NCBI GenBank assembly: GCA_009786925.1
Contig: WRGY01000126.1
Span: 1 to 64,000, forward strand
Reading direction: 5' to 3'
From: Defluviitaleaceae bacterium
GTDB lineage: Bacteria > Bacillota > Clostridia > Lachnospirales > WQUN01
DNA: 64,000 bases
Both the position numbers and the translations under genes were made by a program. The notes below the pieces were generated by a model. That model was given only the letters and a program-made list of their open reading frames with translations, ran no database searches and was not told where the DNA came from. Positions 54,693 through 64,000 of this stretch are shown one piece after another (the first letter of the stretch is position 1; every line of letters starts with the position of its first letter).

Positions 54693-56168
54693 ATGAAAAA
54701 AAGCACATCTCGTTTTACCGCATTGCTTGTAGCGATTGCTATGATTGCGGCTATTTTCCCGGCCATGGTTGTTTCTGCACAGGAAACAGTTGCCCTTGGT
54801 GAGTTTAACTACCCGCATGACTGGGCTCCCAGATGGAATGCGGACGGTGTAAACGACGCTACTTATCCCCTACAGTGGGAAGACGTTGTATCAGCAGTAC
54901 AGCTTGTTGTAGAGCTTTCTGATGTACCCGAAGGTACAGTTGAATTGGTAATGCAAAGCGACGGTAACAACTGGTGGGGACAAGCCCCTGTTTTTAATCC
55001 TGATTATGAAGAAGGCACAACCATCGTTGTTGACCTTGCAGATGTTGCAGGTTGGGATGCCTTCATCAGCGAAGGCCCGGGTCGTTTTGGACTTAGCTTC
55101 ATAGGTGACATTATTGTAAGCGCGCATTTGGTACTTGGTGACGCACCTGCGGCACCCGTGGCGATTGCCGCACCAGTAGCAGTAGGCGCGTCCGGCCAAA
55201 GTGTTCTGCGTCTCGTGACAGACAGCACAGCATATGACCTCGACGGCGTACAAGGCACACTGGAAGTTGCCCCCATAAATGTAGACGGCCGCACACTCAT
55301 TCCTTTCCGCTTTATCGGCGAAACAATGGGCGCAGTCGTAACACACACACCTGCAACAGACGCAACACCACTCATTGCGCATTTTGCACTCGACAACATA
55401 AATGTTGACATCACAATGGGCGTAGATATTTTCCACAATGGTGTAAATATCGGCACACCCGACATAGTTGATGGCAGAACACTCGTACCTGTCCGCGTTG
55501 CAGAAATGATGGGCGCGGAAGTAGTGTGGGAGCCTGTAGCTCGCGCTGTATATGTAATCTTTGGCGAGGACTATGTTCCCGAACTTCCTACCGAACTTCC
55601 TATAGAGGAAGAAGAAGAGGAAGTTGAAGAAGAAATAGAAGAAGAAATAGAAGAAGAAATAGAAGAAGTTGAGGAAGAGGAAGAAGAGGAAATTGAAGAA
55701 GCTCCCGCCGCCGGCGCAGACAATCCTCCCACAGGCAATGTACTCCGTGGCACACAGCTCAATGCATCAGGTCATGGCTCTGTACAGTTTGATGTTAATG
55801 TAACAGCGGGTCAAGAATACACATTGTCTGTTTGGGTAATGAATGCACCCGGACGCGACAACTTCATGTTCCAATGGTCACACTATCCTGCTAACATCGA
55901 CGGATTGTGCTGTGGAGAACGTGATTGCGACGGACTACCTTCTACCCCCGGCGAATGGGTTTTCCACGAAATCACATTCACCGTACCCGCTACAAACAAT
56001 TCTATGATGCAGTTTGTATCCGGCGATGGTGGAGCAGGAGACATTTTCTATATCGCAGACGTAACAATCACAAACTCCGCAGGTGTTTCTACCGTAATCC
56101 CCCTCAATGCAATCAGGAGACACTGGGATGACTCCAGCTTTGCAGTAAGCATCGTACCCGCACCTTAA
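54693..56168 (+). CDS. Secreted copper-amine-oxidase-N/stalk-domain protein with acidic linker and C-terminal carbohydrate-binding-like domain
   Basis: Signal peptide; VDGRTLIPFRFIGETMGAVV...VDGRTLVPVRVAEMMGAEVVWEP; (EEEIEE)n; CBM-like C-terminus. Confidence 0.88.
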   Translation: MKKSTSRFTALLVAIAMIAAIFPAMVVSAQETVALGEFNYPHDWAPRWNADGVNDATYPLQWEDVVSAVQLVVELSDVPEGTVELVMQSDGNNWWGQAPVFNPDYEEGTTIVVDLADVAGWDAFISEGPGRFGLSFIGDIIVSAHLVLGDAPAAPVAIAAPVAVGASGQSVLRLVTDSTAYDLDGVQGTLEVAPINVDGRTLIPFRFIGETMGAVVTHTPATDATPLIAHFALDNINVDITMGVDIFHNGVNIGTPDIVDGRTLVPVRVAEMMGAEVVWEPVARAVYVIFGEDYVPELPTELPIEEEEEEVEEEIEEEIEEEIEEVEEEEEEEIEEAPAAGADNPPTGNVLRGTQLNASGHGSVQFDVNVTAGQEYTLSVWVMNAPGRDNFMFQWSHYPANIDGLCCGERDCDGLPSTPGEWVFHEITFTVPATNNSMMQFVSGDGGAGDIFYIADVTITNSAGVSTVIPLNAIRRHWDDSSFAVSIVPAP

Positions 56169-57763: not shown

Positions 57764-57941
57764 CCCCTACATGCATGTATATGTGGAGAAGGACAAAGAA
57801 ATGTTTAGCATATTAAAACGTGTATTTTACTACGATACTTATTTATAACTGCAAAAAACTTGGGATAAATTTGCAGATTGTTTCTGTGGCGTAGGCTAAT
57901 ACAAGCCACCTATGCATATTTTGTATAAGGTGAGCAAAATG

Positions 57942-58106
57942 ACTTCGGATAATGATGTCCTGATTGAACTAAAGTTACATATTCTCAACAGGTTACATAA
58001 AAAAGGCTATTTAAGTGACGAAATGTGTGCTAATGCTACAGAGTTGGTGTTGGAGGATTATGATGCTTTGCAACATGAAAAACAGACTAAACTCGTCAAT
58101 CTATGA
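57942..58106 (+). CDS. Small acidic helical protein upstream of and overlapping the recombinase gene
   Basis: MTSDNDVLIELKLHILNRLHKKGYLSDEMCANATELVLEDYDAL. Confidence 0.55.
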   Translation, partial: TSDNDVLIELKLHILNRLHKKGYLSDEMCANATELVLEDYDALQHEKQTKLVNL

Positions 58107-59580
58107 TTTGCCGCTAAGGGTGACATTTTATGCGCGTGTTTCTACCGGGTCGGACGAGCAGGCTAATTCTTTGCAAAACCAAATCGGCTATTACTCTGAT
58201 TTTATTAAAAGCATAAAGGCGTGGACGTTTGTAGATGGTTACATAGACGAAGCACTTAGCGGGACATCCGTAACAAAGCGAGAATCATTTTTACAGATGA
58301 TAGCGGATGCCAAGGCAAGCAAGTTTGATTTCGTTATCACCAAAGAGATTTCGAGATTTTCGCGCAATACATTGGATAGCATAAAATATACACAGGAGTT
58401 GCTGAGATACGGCGTAGGCGTTTTTTTCCAATCAGATAATATAAATACACTCATGCCCGACTCAGAGCTTAGGCTTACAATCATGTCAAGCATAGCTCAG
58501 GACGAAGTGCGCAAGTTATCCGAAAGGGTAAACTTTGGTATGCAACGTTCAATGGCAAAGGGTGTTGTGCATGGCAACAGCAATATTTGGGGCTACGAAA
58601 AGCAAAACGGAAAATTAATAATCGTAGAAGAAGAGGCCGAGCTTGTGAGGAAAATCTTCACATTATATGTCACCGAAAATATCGGAATACGGGCTATCAG
58701 TCGGCGTATGAGCGAAATAGGATATAATAACAAAAACGGAAATCCGCTTACGATGTCCACGATACGCCGCATAATTACAAATCCAAAATACAAAGGATAT
58801 TATTGTGGAAACAAAAGCCATAAATTTGATTATCGTTTGGACACAAAAATAATAAGAGACAAATCCGAATGGCTAATCTACAAGGATGAAAACGCCGTCC
58901 CTCCAATTGTGACGGAGGAGCTTTGGGATAAGGCAAATGCGATTTTGGAAGCGCGGAGCAAAAAGCAATCATCGGAGGATAGAACAAGCTATCAAAACAA
59001 ATACTCATATAGCGGCAAAATTTTTTGTGGAGAGCATAATCGCCCATTTTTTCATGATATATACAAATATCCATCGGGCAATAAGGATTTGTGGAAATGC
59101 AAGCAAAAAAATGAATGCAATCTCCCCATTGTATACACAACAGAGATAGACAAAATCGTCAAGGGGATTTTTAATCAATATGTACAGGATAAAAACAGCC
59201 TGGTCGAAGAACTCGTTAATCTTTATTTGCGAGTTTCAAAGCTCTCAAAAAATGAGACTCGTCTAAATAAACTTTTGGCGCAGGTCTTAGCACTAAAAAA
59301 GAAAAGAGACAGGCTTTTGACATTAAACATTGACGGGCGAATATCCGATGATGAGTTTGAGGAGCGTAATAATGCGTTTAATGGTGAAATAACTGCCATA
59401 AACCACAGGCTTACAGCACTCCAAGAAGAAAGCATATGTAAACCGACGGACGAAATCCGAAACATTATACTTAGTGAGCTGGATTTTAATGATGGGTTTA
59501 GCCACTCACTCGTAGATGCACTCATTGAGCGGATTGAAATACATAAAACCGACATCAAGGTGTATTTGAGGGCTTTTTAG
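58063..59580 (+). CDS. Large serine recombinase (resolvase/invertase N-terminus, recombinase and zinc-ribbon domains)
   Basis: VTFYARVSTGSDEQANSLQNQI (catalytic Ser), EISRFSRNTLDSI, SIAQDEVRKLSERVNFG, ITNPKYKGYYCGNK; likely start 58063 after GGAGG. Confidence 0.93.
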   Translation: MLCNMKNRLNSSIYDLPLRVTFYARVSTGSDEQANSLQNQIGYYSDFIKSIKAWTFVDGYIDEALSGTSVTKRESFLQMIADAKASKFDFVITKEISRFSRNTLDSIKYTQELLRYGVGVFFQSDNINTLMPDSELRLTIMSSIAQDEVRKLSERVNFGMQRSMAKGVVHGNSNIWGYEKQNGKLIIVEEEAELVRKIFTLYVTENIGIRAISRRMSEIGYNNKNGNPLTMSTIRRIITNPKYKGYYCGNKSHKFDYRLDTKIIRDKSEWLIYKDENAVPPIVTEELWDKANAILEARSKKQSSEDRTSYQNKYSYSGKIFCGEHNRPFFHDIYKYPSGNKDLWKCKQKNECNLPIVYTTEIDKIVKGIFNQYVQDKNSLVEELVNLYLRVSKLSKNETRLNKLLAQVLALKKKRDRLLTLNIDGRISDDEFEERNNAFNGEITAINHRLTALQEESICKPTDEIRNIILSELDFNDGFSHSLVDALIERIEIHKTDIKVYLRAF

Positions 59581-59746
59581 TCTGCTTTTTGACTGGTCGC
59601 GGTTCAAAGAGGGTGCATCTCTCTCCCGTTGTTTCGAATACTACTTCGGAGGGCATTTTTTTTGATTTGAAACCAAAAAAACGACAGGCTCTGGGTTGAG
59701 CCGGTCTCCATGTATTAATATAATGTTTGCATTTTATACAATTCAC
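59555..59746 (-). CDS. Small Cys-rich protein (CxxC...C...C), last gene of the Hsp70 cluster
   Basis: MNCIKCKHYINTWRPAQPRACRFFGFKSKKMPSEVVFETTGERCTLFEP; ATGA overlap with the upstream gene. Confidence 0.7.
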   Translation of the reverse strand: MNCIKCKHYINTWRPAQPRACRFFGFKSKKMPSEVVFETTGERCTLFEPRPVKKQTKKPSNTP

Positions 59747-61251
59747 ATCTTCACCAAAAATTCTCGTGTGTAGTTTGATTTTGGAAACAAGTCACCAAAA
59801 CCCATGTCCGTTATTTTTAGGGTAAGCTCTGTGTTAGAGCGGAATGTCGGTCGGATTTCCAATCTGGTTACACCTTTTGGGCGTTGTGGGAAGTCGTCGA
59901 GCCGGATTTTGGAAACAATACGACCGTCACCTGCGGGATATGCTTCTACCAGGTCGAGTGACATGTCGTCAGTCGCACTGTTAACAAGAAAAAGCTTGCT
60001 CGGATGTGTTTGCCACCAAAATCCGTTTCGTTCGATTAATGTTAAAAAACTCCTGCCGTCAGAGAGGCCAATATCATTCACCAGTTGGTGTTTATCTTCT
60101 ATTGCCAAGGGTGCATCTGTTATTCCCAGCTCGCGTGCGGCTATGCAGGCCGCACCTTCGGCGGTAGCGAGTTTTGGATTTTTATATACCTTCACACGCT
60201 CTTTTGGGAAGATGGCGGTTACAGCTTCTTTTGCCCATAGCATATCAAAGCCTCCGCCCACACATAGGACTGTGTCTATTTCGGATGGCATAAATGCTTT
60301 GCCCGATAGACTTTTTGCCAGCACATCGCTGATAAATTGGTTAAAACGTTTTATATATGGCGCGGTTAGTTCCTGCACACGTTCATATGTGAGGGTGTGT
60401 TGCACAGGTGGATATATAAAGTTGTAGTACAGTTTTTGTGGCTTTGTGCGGATATTCTTCTGAAATAATATATCCTTATGCTGATACGTAAAGACCTTTA
60501 ATTGCTCACCGCCGTCATCTTCTAAAAACGAACCAAACAGCTCATTTGCATCCCTTGTTATGGCCGACATGCTTATTTCGTTATCAAATACGGAGGACAG
60601 GCTCACGGCGTTTACGCCTCCGTCTTTTTCTGCGACGCTGTACAGTCCGCCGCGCAGCTCTCTATTGCCTATGTCCAGAAGCAATACGTTTTCGGGTGAT
60701 TTTGGTGGTGTTTTATAATGATGGGCCAACACACACTCTCTGTCGGGGATGAACGCGATTAGCTCTTTTTCATATCCGGCTTGTTTGAAAACACGAGTAA
60801 ATTCTTCATGCGCCTGTGTACTAAAATACGCAGGTATGGAGACAACTATACCTACGATTTCTGCTTTGGGATTTATGTTTTTTACGCTGGAGAGTATTTC
60901 TTTGATAAAAAGTGCAAATACGCCTGACACACTAAGCGAACGCCCACCCACATCGAGATAGTCGAATCGCCCCATCCGCGAAAGCAGGGATTTAAACACC
61001 TTGCCCGCACCCGCGTTTAGCACCGCGTATTCTCCAAACACCCACTCCTTTGTCTCGGTGATGTACTGCATCACCGTAGGAATGGAGGGTTTTCCGTATC
61101 CGCCGCTTAGGTCGATGGCCTCGGCCGCACTCTCTGCCAAATTGTAAAACGCGATGCCCGATGAGTCATTACCTATGTCGAGACCTATGATATAGTGCGC
61201 TTCGTTTTGTTTTTGCTCGGCGGGGAGCGACTTGTATTTTTTCCAATTCAT
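59743..61251 (-). CDS. Divergent Hsp70-like actin-fold ATPase (possibly DUF5716-like)
   Basis: Phosphate-1 YIIGLDIGNDSSGIAFYN, phosphate-2-like NVLLLDIGNRELRGGLYS, adenosine motif DTVLCVGGGFDMLWAKEA; C-terminal beta-rich region. Confidence 0.85.
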   Translation of the reverse strand: MNWKKYKSLPAEQKQNEAHYIIGLDIGNDSSGIAFYNLAESAAEAIDLSGGYGKPSIPTVMQYITETKEWVFGEYAVLNAGAGKVFKSLLSRMGRFDYLDVGGRSLSVSGVFALFIKEILSSVKNINPKAEIVGIVVSIPAYFSTQAHEEFTRVFKQAGYEKELIAFIPDRECVLAHHYKTPPKSPENVLLLDIGNRELRGGLYSVAEKDGGVNAVSLSSVFDNEISMSAITRDANELFGSFLEDDGGEQLKVFTYQHKDILFQKNIRTKPQKLYYNFIYPPVQHTLTYERVQELTAPYIKRFNQFISDVLAKSLSGKAFMPSEIDTVLCVGGGFDMLWAKEAVTAIFPKERVKVYKNPKLATAEGAACIAARELGITDAPLAIEDKHQLVNDIGLSDGRSFLTLIERNGFWWQTHPSKLFLVNSATDDMSLDLVEAYPAGDGRIVSKIRLDDFPQRPKGVTRLEIRPTFRSNTELTLKITDMGFGDLFPKSNYTREFLVKM

Positions 61252-61254
61252 AAT

Positions 61255-62958
61255 CTACCTCGCCGCGATTACGTTTGCACGCAAAATCACTTGCTCTTTG
61301 TGTTTGTAGCCCGCTGTCATAACCTTTACGATTTCGCCTTTTTCAAAGTTGCTATGCTTTTCGGCAATGATGACCTCATGCTCCTTGGAATTAAATTGCT
61401 CTTTTAGTAGCGGGCGGATTACAGTGATATTATTTTTTTTCAATATAACTTCTAATGAGCGGAATGTGAAATCCAAATCCTGCGCCGCCGCCAGTACATG
61501 TCTGTCCTGTGAATCTCTCAGGCGCGAAACGCTGTGGGTCAGGATTTCTTCGAATGTGCATACCTCATACAACAGCACCTCTCTTTTAAAACGAAGGGAT
61601 GCCTTCTCCAGCTTTTCTGTGTATTTTATTTTTTTGTTTTCCAAAAGCTCACGGCATGGGTCAAAAGTTCTGCCATTTTTGCATTCTTCGAAAAATCCGC
61701 CGATTGCAGACTCATCTTCGGGTGGGTTTTCTGTCCATGCGGCTCTGACATTTTCCAAAATCGGTTGCATTTCTTCGCTCCCGAAAGCAGTTTTTTCTGT
61801 AGAAAACTCCTTCAACACATCACCGCATTGGCTTGTAAACGTTACGATGTTTTCCTTTAGTCCTGATATTTTTATTTCGATAGTCTCACAAATCCCTGTC
61901 AAGATGTTTTTTTCTGACTCGACTTCTGCCTGATTATTATTTTTTATACTCGCCAAGCTTTTTACAAAAACATCGGTGATTTCTTCTGCTAACAAAACCT
62001 CTGCACTCACCATACGTTGCAAGGTGTAAGCCGCCTTTTTATATTCCATGTCAAAACCGCCGAGCAGCACCGTAGCCTGTGCGTCCAACGCGTCCAAAAA
62101 CATTTGCTTCTCGGGCTGCACGGGAGAAGCGGCTACCAGTGCGGCATTCAGCTCACTCTCAAACTCCTCCAGTGGGCGGCATACTGTGGTGCGTGGCGAC
62201 GAAGCAAGTAGCTTTTGCAATTCCTCGATAATAGGTGCTGTCTGCTGGTATGCCTCGCGCAATGCATCCAAAATGCATGTTACTGTAGGCTCTCTTGGTG
62301 CGGCTTCTTCGAGAGCAAGCACCTGTACCTTTATGATATTGCCTAGCTCTTCCCACTCGCGCTCCACCAGCGCGGTATAAAACCGTGATGTCTTACGCCC
62401 TTGCAGGTCATCAAACTTAGCCTGACAAAACCGCAGTGCTTCACGATATGTTGTATAAAAATCATAAAAATTGCCGAGCAAAATCATCTCAAATGAGTCA
62501 TCCCATACCTCGTTTTCGTTACGTAGACCGGTCGCAAATTTGCTTTCATGCTTTTCGATTACTTCCACTGCTTTTAGTACTGCTTCATCTACGATTGCGC
62601 ATTTTTCCAGAGTTATGGGGTTTGAGCCTTCTTGGAAATCGCCGGTCTCTTCTTCAAACTCACGCAGTCGTGATTTTAACACCTCGCATATGCCCATGAT
62701 GAGTGCGCGGACAGTCGGGCTTTCAAAAGAACTATCTGCCGCCAAATCTACTACTCGACGATACACACCCATGAGTCCTACAAGATGTGCATAAACAGTC
62801 TCATCGCTTTCTCCAAGGCGCGAAAAGCGAGCCGCGTCTGCTGCGATTTGCGCACGCACGGCTTCTCTGATTGCCGAAAATTTTTCTTTTATGCTTTGGC
62901 CTAAGCTTTTGGAAGAAACGGCTTTATATTCCTGCCAAGCCGAAAAAAGATTACTCAT
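61255..62958 (-). CDS. Large helical protein with C-terminal GrpE-like domain
   Basis: C-terminus FNSKEHEVIIAEKHSNFEKGEIVKVMTAGYKHKEQVILRANVIAAR matches the GrpE head pattern (HEAV...pGTVvevlqkGY...RvLRpA.V); about 480 aa N-terminal extension. Confidence 0.75.
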   Translation of the reverse strand: MSNLFSAWQEYKAVSSKSLGQSIKEKFSAIREAVRAQIAADAARFSRLGESDETVYAHLVGLMGVYRRVVDLAADSSFESPTVRALIMGICEVLKSRLREFEEETGDFQEGSNPITLEKCAIVDEAVLKAVEVIEKHESKFATGLRNENEVWDDSFEMILLGNFYDFYTTYREALRFCQAKFDDLQGRKTSRFYTALVEREWEELGNIIKVQVLALEEAAPREPTVTCILDALREAYQQTAPIIEELQKLLASSPRTTVCRPLEEFESELNAALVAASPVQPEKQMFLDALDAQATVLLGGFDMEYKKAAYTLQRMVSAEVLLAEEITDVFVKSLASIKNNNQAEVESEKNILTGICETIEIKISGLKENIVTFTSQCGDVLKEFSTEKTAFGSEEMQPILENVRAAWTENPPEDESAIGGFFEECKNGRTFDPCRELLENKKIKYTEKLEKASLRFKREVLLYEVCTFEEILTHSVSRLRDSQDRHVLAAAQDLDFTFRSLEVILKKNNITVIRPLLKEQFNSKEHEVIIAEKHSNFEKGEIVKVMTAGYKHKEQVILRANVIAAR

Positions 62959-64000
62959 AAAGCTCGTCCACTGAAAGCTCTGTCACTACTCCGTCCGTAG
63001 AAAGGCTTTTAGCCATCACTCTCAGCATATTATCCTGCCCCACATGGAAGATTACCTTTACTTTTTCCTGTCCGCGCACACCCTGCGGAATCCCACGTAG
63101 TGATGTGCCGGCGAGGCGTTTCATACCCTCGCGGTTTACTGTTATATTTTTATCTACATCCAATGCGGGCATGGTATTTTCGTATGCTACGATTGCCATA
63201 CTCGTTACATTGTCGTGATTTGTCATGAGCGGCTCGGGTGCATCCACAGTCAGACCCTCTTTTGGTATATCCAGCCCGGCGGGTACTATTTCCATAAACC
63301 GCCGTCCTGCGATTTCCAACCCAAGCGGATGAATCGTCCGCTCTTGCACGACCGGGCCGCGCACGGTGGGCATCATTATCATATTGCAATAATACGCTGC
63401 ACCCTGCGAAATACTAAGCGCGGGACTGATTTTTGATTTAAACGGCTCTTTGTTAAACCGCTCGGTGATTTTTTCGCCTACATACAGAACGGAAGAACTA
63501 CCTCCCACGAGGAAAATCTCGTCTATATCCCCTTCGGTAAGCCCGCCCGCTTCCAGACAACGACTCACACATGTCAATGTCTCGTCAATGAGGTCGCTTA
63601 CGCTTTTGTCACGGAATTTTTCATAAGATTCTTGTGAATCCCCCAGTGCGTTCACCCTCTTATGTGTCAAAAATTGCTCGCGGGTTATCTCCATGTTTAT
63701 GTTTACGATTTTTGGCTCTTGGATAAGTGGTGCCAGTGTCACCTTTGTTGTTTTTGTTTGGCTTAGGCGTTCTTTTGCTTGGTTGGCGGCTTGTTGTAAC
63801 CGTACGAGAGCGACCTTTTTTTGACGCTTAGAAACACCATCGTCTGCATCCTCATCAAAGAGGTCGATTTCTTCTCCCGTGAGCTTTTTAAATTCTTCGT
63901 ACACAATATCCATGATGACCTTGTCTATGTCGTTTCCGCCCAAGTCATTGTCTCCATATGTGCTTATGATAGAAATGGTAGGCTCGCCCGCCTCTTCTGT
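62951..64000 (-). CDS. Hsp70/DnaK-family chaperone, N-terminal part outside the window
   Basis: Open frame continues upstream (TEEAGEPTISIISTYGDNDLGGNDIDKVIMD...); EIFLVGGSSSVLYVGEKI; beta substrate-binding-like C-terminus; no alpha-helical lid. Confidence 0.9.
   Translation of the reverse strand, partial: TEEAGEPTISIISTYGDNDLGGNDIDKVIMDIVYEEFKKLTGEEIDLFDEDADDGVSKRQKKVALVRLQQAANQAKERLSQTKTTKVTLAPLIQEPKIVNINMEITREQFLTHKRVNALGDSQESYEKFRDKSVSDLIDETLTCVSRCLEAGGLTEGDIDEIFLVGGSSSVLYVGEKITERFNKEPFKSKISPALSISQGAAYYCNMIMMPTVRGPVVQERTIHPLGLEIAGRRFMEIVPAGLDIPKEGLTVDAPEPLMTNHDNVTSMAIVAYENTMPALDVDKNITVNREGMKRLAGTSLRGIPQGVRGQEKVKVIFHVGQDNMLRVMAKSLSTDGVVTELSVDELYE

Follow-up and report, generated by a model that had tools for sequence, protein, structure and literature searches.

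Comparative sequence analysis of a chaperone-like system inherited vertically within one order of gut bacteria

At the end of the window, by which we mean the whole analysed stretch of 64,000 nucleotides (positions 1 to 64,000 of contig C126, 111,701 bp), four minus-strand open reading frames overlap or abut one another and bring together an Hsp70 and a protein ending in a GrpE-like domain, which raises the question of whether they belong to a dedicated, non-housekeeping chaperone machine and, if so, which other parts it has and what task it would perform. A sequence-only reading of this DNA had proposed a four-gene system, with two ATPases served by their own exchange factor, for envelope assembly, sporulation or defence. 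The features concerned are the following:

62951..64000, minus strand: 3' part of hsp70A, cut by the window edge (PF00012, E 4.3e-31 on the fragment)
61255..62958, minus strand: grpF, 567 aa, a helical body (residues ~1-455) followed by a C-terminal GrpE domain
61267..61593, minus strand: GrpE-homologous stretch of grpF (residues 456-564; PF01025 match positions 57-162)
59743..61251, minus strand: DUF5716 protein, 502 aa, Hsp70 fold, predicted pseudo-ATPase
59555..59746, minus strand: small Cys-rich ORF, 63 aa, coupled translationally to the DUF5716 gene by GTGA
58015..59580, plus strand: large serine recombinase (Resolvase, Recombinase and Zn ribbon domains), convergent with the operon

The four frames lie where they had been placed, with the 8-bp overlap between hsp70A and grpF and the 3-bp gap between grpF and the DUF5716 gene; only the last overlap, given as ATGA, in fact reads GTGA, with a GTG start at 59746 and a TGA stop. 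Past the window edge, hsp70A continues to C126:64633, its start being taken as MGTLGLD, which is conserved in relatives, and the full-length product of 560 aa scores 219 bits against PF00012. Upstream of hsp70A lies a divergent gene that is VanZ-like by inspection, and hsp70A is therefore the first gene of the operon in the window genome. The GrpE head assigned to the C-terminus of grpF was confirmed at 57.1 bits, against a Pfam cut-off of 25.8, and the third protein matches both PF18980 (DUF5716_C; 72.7 bits, curated cut-off 34.7) and PF00012 (HSP70; 43.3 bits). The Cys-rich ORF has a C-x2-C motif near its start and two further Cys; of all the loci fetched, only those of G023 (L047/L052), the nearest relative, contain a homologue, and the ORF was consequently rejected as a component. 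Thus, three genes of the proposed four-gene system stand, and the true set is larger, with further Hsp70s encoded elsewhere in the genome.

Gene order proved to be conserved in neighbourhoods across many families of the order. Loci of 29 genomes from the same family (those relatives that carry names are MAGs, for the most part under the label Defluviitaleaceae) contain hsp70A-grpF-DUF5716, followed in many of them by hspX and hspVWA, and loci from other families carry the complete set, the ancestral order being DUF5717a-DUF5717b-hsp70A-grpF-DUF5716-hspX-hspVWA-TPR. The additional products are DUF5717a (~390 aa), DUF5717b (~900 aa, TPR-like), the Hsp70 hspX (~545 aa), hspVWA (~693 aa, Hsp70 plus vWA) and a TPR protein (~387 aa); by inspection, one member of the DUF5717 pair is TPR-like and the other beta-rich. 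Further, five loci from several lineages encode, close to the end of the operon, a coiled-coil protein of ~390 aa with two predicted transmembrane segments, and its copies are homologous between two groups of families (hhalign, 99.8%).

Some loci depart from this arrangement. In family f3, a short grpF of 279 aa (L114:9514-10353) with intact neighbours may represent either a reduction or an ancestral state that preceded expansion of the helical body. A small aspartyl (retropepsin-type) protease-like protein, recognized by inspection, lies between hsp70A and grpF in G022 (L046:3932-4417), and a 576-aa TIR-domain protein between grpF and a DUF5716 without N-terminus in G020 (L051:7518-9248). In f4, probably the Lachnospiraceae and the order's largest family in the sample, the operon retains only a fused DUF5717 (~1,190 aa) and short forms of DUF5716 and of the TPR-type protein, the latter related to the long one (hhalign, 99.7%); in several genomes this reduced module lies near valS or purB, two genes identified by inspection.

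None of the eight cytosolic parts is missing from the window genome, where they are spread over four sites:

C126: hsp70A-grpF-DUF5716
C60: hspX-hspVWA
C125: DUF5717a-b
C109: TPR

Apart from these, and as had been anticipated, a canonical housekeeping locus hrcA-grpE-dnaK-dnaJ is present on C21, and it contains the single J-domain protein of the genome (~90% complete). The operon has been broken at different junctions: between DUF5716 and hspX in the genus of the window genome, between hspX and hspVWA in G183, a genome of another family in which contigs of >100 kb show both sides of the break, and in genus g10 hsp70A is missing in front of grpF. The parts remain co-retained after dispersal, and the different positions of the breaks argue for retention by selection.

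The serine recombinase gene, which overlaps the end of the Cys ORF by 26 bp and is accompanied by a 64-aa ORF at 57912-58106, was considered as the cause of the split and rejected, since members of the genus without a recombinase in their loci show the same split; no homologue of it was found in the other loci fetched. Elsewhere in the window, a plus-strand gene at 54693-56168 encodes a secreted-looking protein in which a Cu_amine_oxidN1 domain is combined with a long run rich in Glu. On C60, a 901-aa protein with an HD domain and PRTase-CE (L014:3763-6468, G000) is encoded ~10-15 bp before hspX-hspVWA, and the other loci fetched likewise yielded no copy of it.

An order-wide survey of 246 genomes, each at least 85% complete, detected grpF in 74, hspVWA in 75, DUF5717b in 118 and PF18980 in 116. 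Both grpF and hspVWA were present in 74 genomes and neither in 171, the sole genome with hspVWA only being G191, whose DUF5716 sits at a contig edge; the corresponding Fisher p of 6e-63 takes no account of shared ancestry and reads only as a near-perfect profile match. DUF5717b accompanies grpF in 74/74 genomes, and grpF and hspVWA are on different contigs in 23 of these 74. Within the family of the window genome, grpF was found in 34/38 genomes, including all 21 of high quality, and the copies are syntenic and single-copy; conversely, it is absent from the 45/45 sampled f4 genomes listed with DUF5716. In a class-wide sample of 392 genomes, which includes ~20 of the order, DUF5717_N was not found outside the order (~370 genomes), and the hspVWA profile matched only the window genome and, weakly, G498 and G557 (E about 1e-23); the latter matches cover mainly the vWA part, were judged as vWA domain sharing and were rejected as relatives. 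On these sequence comparisons, a chaperone-like system is seen to be inherited vertically within one order of gut bacteria. The claim of a dedicated, non-housekeeping Hsp70/GrpE machine was thereby upheld by the separate canonical locus, the conserved gene order and the co-occurring further Hsp70s; GrpE similarity, a second dnaK/grpE locus and a conserved order, on which that claim hinged, are all present.

Whether these Hsp70s are likely to work as ATPases was assessed by aligning 32 hsp70A, 27 hspX, 21 hspVWA and 50 DUF5716 sequences with DnaK, HscA and HscC of E. coli. Residues D8, T11, K70, E171, D194, T199 and D201 are invariant in hsp70A, hspX and hspVWA, and recognizable SBD-beta-like sequence remains in them. 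By contrast, the position of K70 is Lys in 0/50 DUF5716 sequences and that of T199 is Thr in 1/50, E171 is lost and the GGGTFD loop is gone, so that DUF5716 is predicted to be a pseudo-ATPase; of the seven catalytic positions only D8 and D194 escape loss, most sequences still having an acidic residue there, so that it may still bind nucleotide without hydrolysis. Accordingly, the second ATPase that had been read in the third window gene holds as an Hsp70-fold protein but is predicted to be dead as an enzyme, and instead of two ATPases there are three live Hsp70s, two of which, hspX and hspVWA, are encoded elsewhere in the window genome.

The three live families depart from DnaK in their regulatory features. 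N170, T173 and D393, which together with R167 we take to be the J-domain contact residues of DnaK, are replaced in hsp70A, hspX and hspVWA, the R167 region of hsp70A contains a local insertion in the alignment, and the linker differs from VLLLD. The missing alpha lid noticed in the first gene (HSP70, E 4e-31) is a family trait, as no residue aligned to DnaK D526 in any of 32 hsp70A or 27 hspX sequences, and hspVWA carries its vWA domain at the lid position, with the DxTxS, T and D columns of the MIDAS site (DxSxS...T...D) invariant in 16 sequences. In a maximum-likelihood tree, hsp70A, hspX, hspVWA and DUF5716 formed four monophyletic groups apart from DnaK/HscA/HscC, with long branches and an unsure order of the four groups.

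The exchange-factor protein is similarly unusual. In 41 relatives grpF measures 502-653 aa, and in the head, with E. coli GrpE numbering, G168, G177 and A188 are conserved in 41/41, H154 in 40/41 and Y178 in 39/41; the solved GrpE structure 4ani was matched at E 8e-6. An AF2 model from 7 sequences is all-helical to residue 508 (mean pLDDT 76.5), with the head poorly modelled, and a Foldseek comparison of it with the PDB returned generic helical bundles only, none at E<=0.001. The AF2 model of DUF5716 had a mean pLDDT of 50.6 and was unusable.

The operon ancestrally united three Hsp70s with intact sites, a degenerate Hsp70, a GrpE fusion, the DUF5717 pair and a TPR protein, and we consider it probable that these constitute an order-specific, J-independent multi-Hsp70 machine that assembles or remodels a specific large complex, has its own scaffold and is probably membrane-tethered. 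The live Hsp70s would cycle ATP without a J-protein, hydrolysis being triggered by assembly onto their own scaffold or by the client, and the GrpE head of grpF would reset them while its helical body holds them in the complex; alternatively, the head could serve the housekeeping DnaK. DUF5716 would act as a fixed, nucleotide-insensitive hub, a role that would explain why it survives ATPase loss together with DUF5717, and this survival suggests that both form the scaffold. The vWA domain, with its intact MIDAS, and the TPR and DUF5717 proteins would bind the client, and in some lineages the two-TM coiled-coil protein would tether the complex to the membrane. The likeliest job would be the assembly or remodelling of one specific large complex, probably at the membrane's inner face, as opposed to general refolding: the membrane protein and the vWA/TPR binders together suggest assembly near the membrane, and the envelope role advanced earlier finds a weak hint in that membrane protein near the operon end. 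A more explicit version, which we offer tentatively and regard as rather doubtful in its full detail, is a stable heteromer of four Hsp70-fold subunits, three ATPases and a pseudo-ATPase hub, that has an integral GrpE and clamps its client by the vWA domain. It would be a J-independent motor unlike described chaperones, and its ATP-less remnant DUF5717-DUF5716-TPR would persist in f4 as a core module.

Other explanations account for part of these observations. The Hsp70-fold proteins may be actin-like or scaffold ATPases of a developmental or structural machine in sporulation, division or cell shape, as their fold is common to Hsp70, MreB and FtsA, hspVWA and hspX score against MreB_Mbl, and the loss of lid and linker speaks against ordinary refolding. 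We judge this unlikely, given that Hsp70-type catalytic residues and SBD-region sequence are kept, HSP70 scores greatly exceed MreB scores, a GrpE partner suits a chaperone cycle, and no gene for sporulation or division recurs constantly beside the operon in the loci. The genes may also be ordinary DnaK/GrpE paralogues whose proteostasis roles overlap and whose clustering reflects descent alone, and extra DnaK copies do exist in 6.4% of bacterial genomes (PMC11019930); however, four distinct clades rather than recent DnaK duplicates, lost J-contact residues, the missing lid, a GrpE on a large body and a constant association with DUF5717, DUF5716 and TPR proteins leave this account very improbable.

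A role in conflict or defence, in the manner of the GAP1-N2 GTPase systems, would have the Hsp70s set the threshold for an effector complex or assemble it on infection. This account draws on a common inventory (HSP70, GrpE, an extra HSP70 and TPR proteins; PMC7159879), on the TIR gene inside the G020 operon and on the HD/PRTase-CE gene directly before hspX in the window genome. The TIR and PRTase-CE genes, however, occur in one genome each, the operon contains no GTPase, DnaJ or constant effector, PADLOC recognized none of the core parts specifically and gave only weak matches to candidate profiles at the level of common domains, and presence in 21/21 high-quality family genomes, syntenic and single-copy, differs from patchy defence islands. 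Core and vertical inheritance argues against defence, which we find quite unlikely, and nothing was found in support of either the sporulation or the defence role advanced in the sequence-only reading.

The assembly machine that we favour, with its eight cytosolic parts and a membrane protein, appears to be uncharacterized so far: among open-licence papers we found nothing on DUF5716, DUF5717 or such a system beyond the analogy of Kaur et al., the one paper mentioning DUF5716 being apparently unrelated, to judge by its title. If correct, the proposal would provide the first functional frame for DUF5716 and DUF5717, whose genes belong to the core set of a large order of gut bacteria. It would also contradict the textbook view that J-protein, lid and hydrophobic linker are all indispensable to an Hsp70; moreover, relatives with the pseudo-Hsp70 scaffold and without all three ATPases and the exchange factor constitute a natural loss experiment.

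Compared with known systems, the machine has in common with DnaK-DnaJ-GrpE of E. coli K-12 an Hsp70 core with all the catalytic residues tested, an SBD-beta-like region and a GrpE head, but lacks the lid, the VLLLD linker, the J-contact residues and a J partner, and comprises three live Hsp70s and a dead one. Its GrpE head is carried on a helical body several times longer: a GrpE of ~200 aa has a paired long N-terminal helix, a plan from which grpF, with its length of 502-653 aa and its modelled helical body, departs. HscA and HscC are non-housekeeping Hsp70s too, yet both keep the N-E-P-T motif and the linker Asp, which the families studied here do not, and the J-type co-chaperone genes hscB and djlC adjoin hscA and hscC in E. 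coli, whereas the present operon has none. The closest published analogue is, by analogy of gene content, the HSP70/GrpE theme of the GAP1-N2 GTPase systems (Kaur et al., 2020), in which HSP70 and GrpE occur with another HSP70 and with FNIII-DnaJ/TPR proteins; in both cases one neighbourhood brings together two HSP70s, a GrpE and TPR or beta-sandwich proteins. By the published description, the present system differs in having no GTPase, DnaJ domain or effector (a Pfam scan of the operon genes revealed neither a GAP1-N2 GTPase nor an effector), in being core and vertical rather than patchy, and in its DUF5717 proteins and the vWA fused to Hsp70, which are absent from that description. Finally, Pfam membership places the third window gene in DUF5716 (PF18980) and the DUF5717 pair in DUF5717 (PF18983/PF18984), families without a described function that are tied here to Hsp70, GrpE and vWA proteins.
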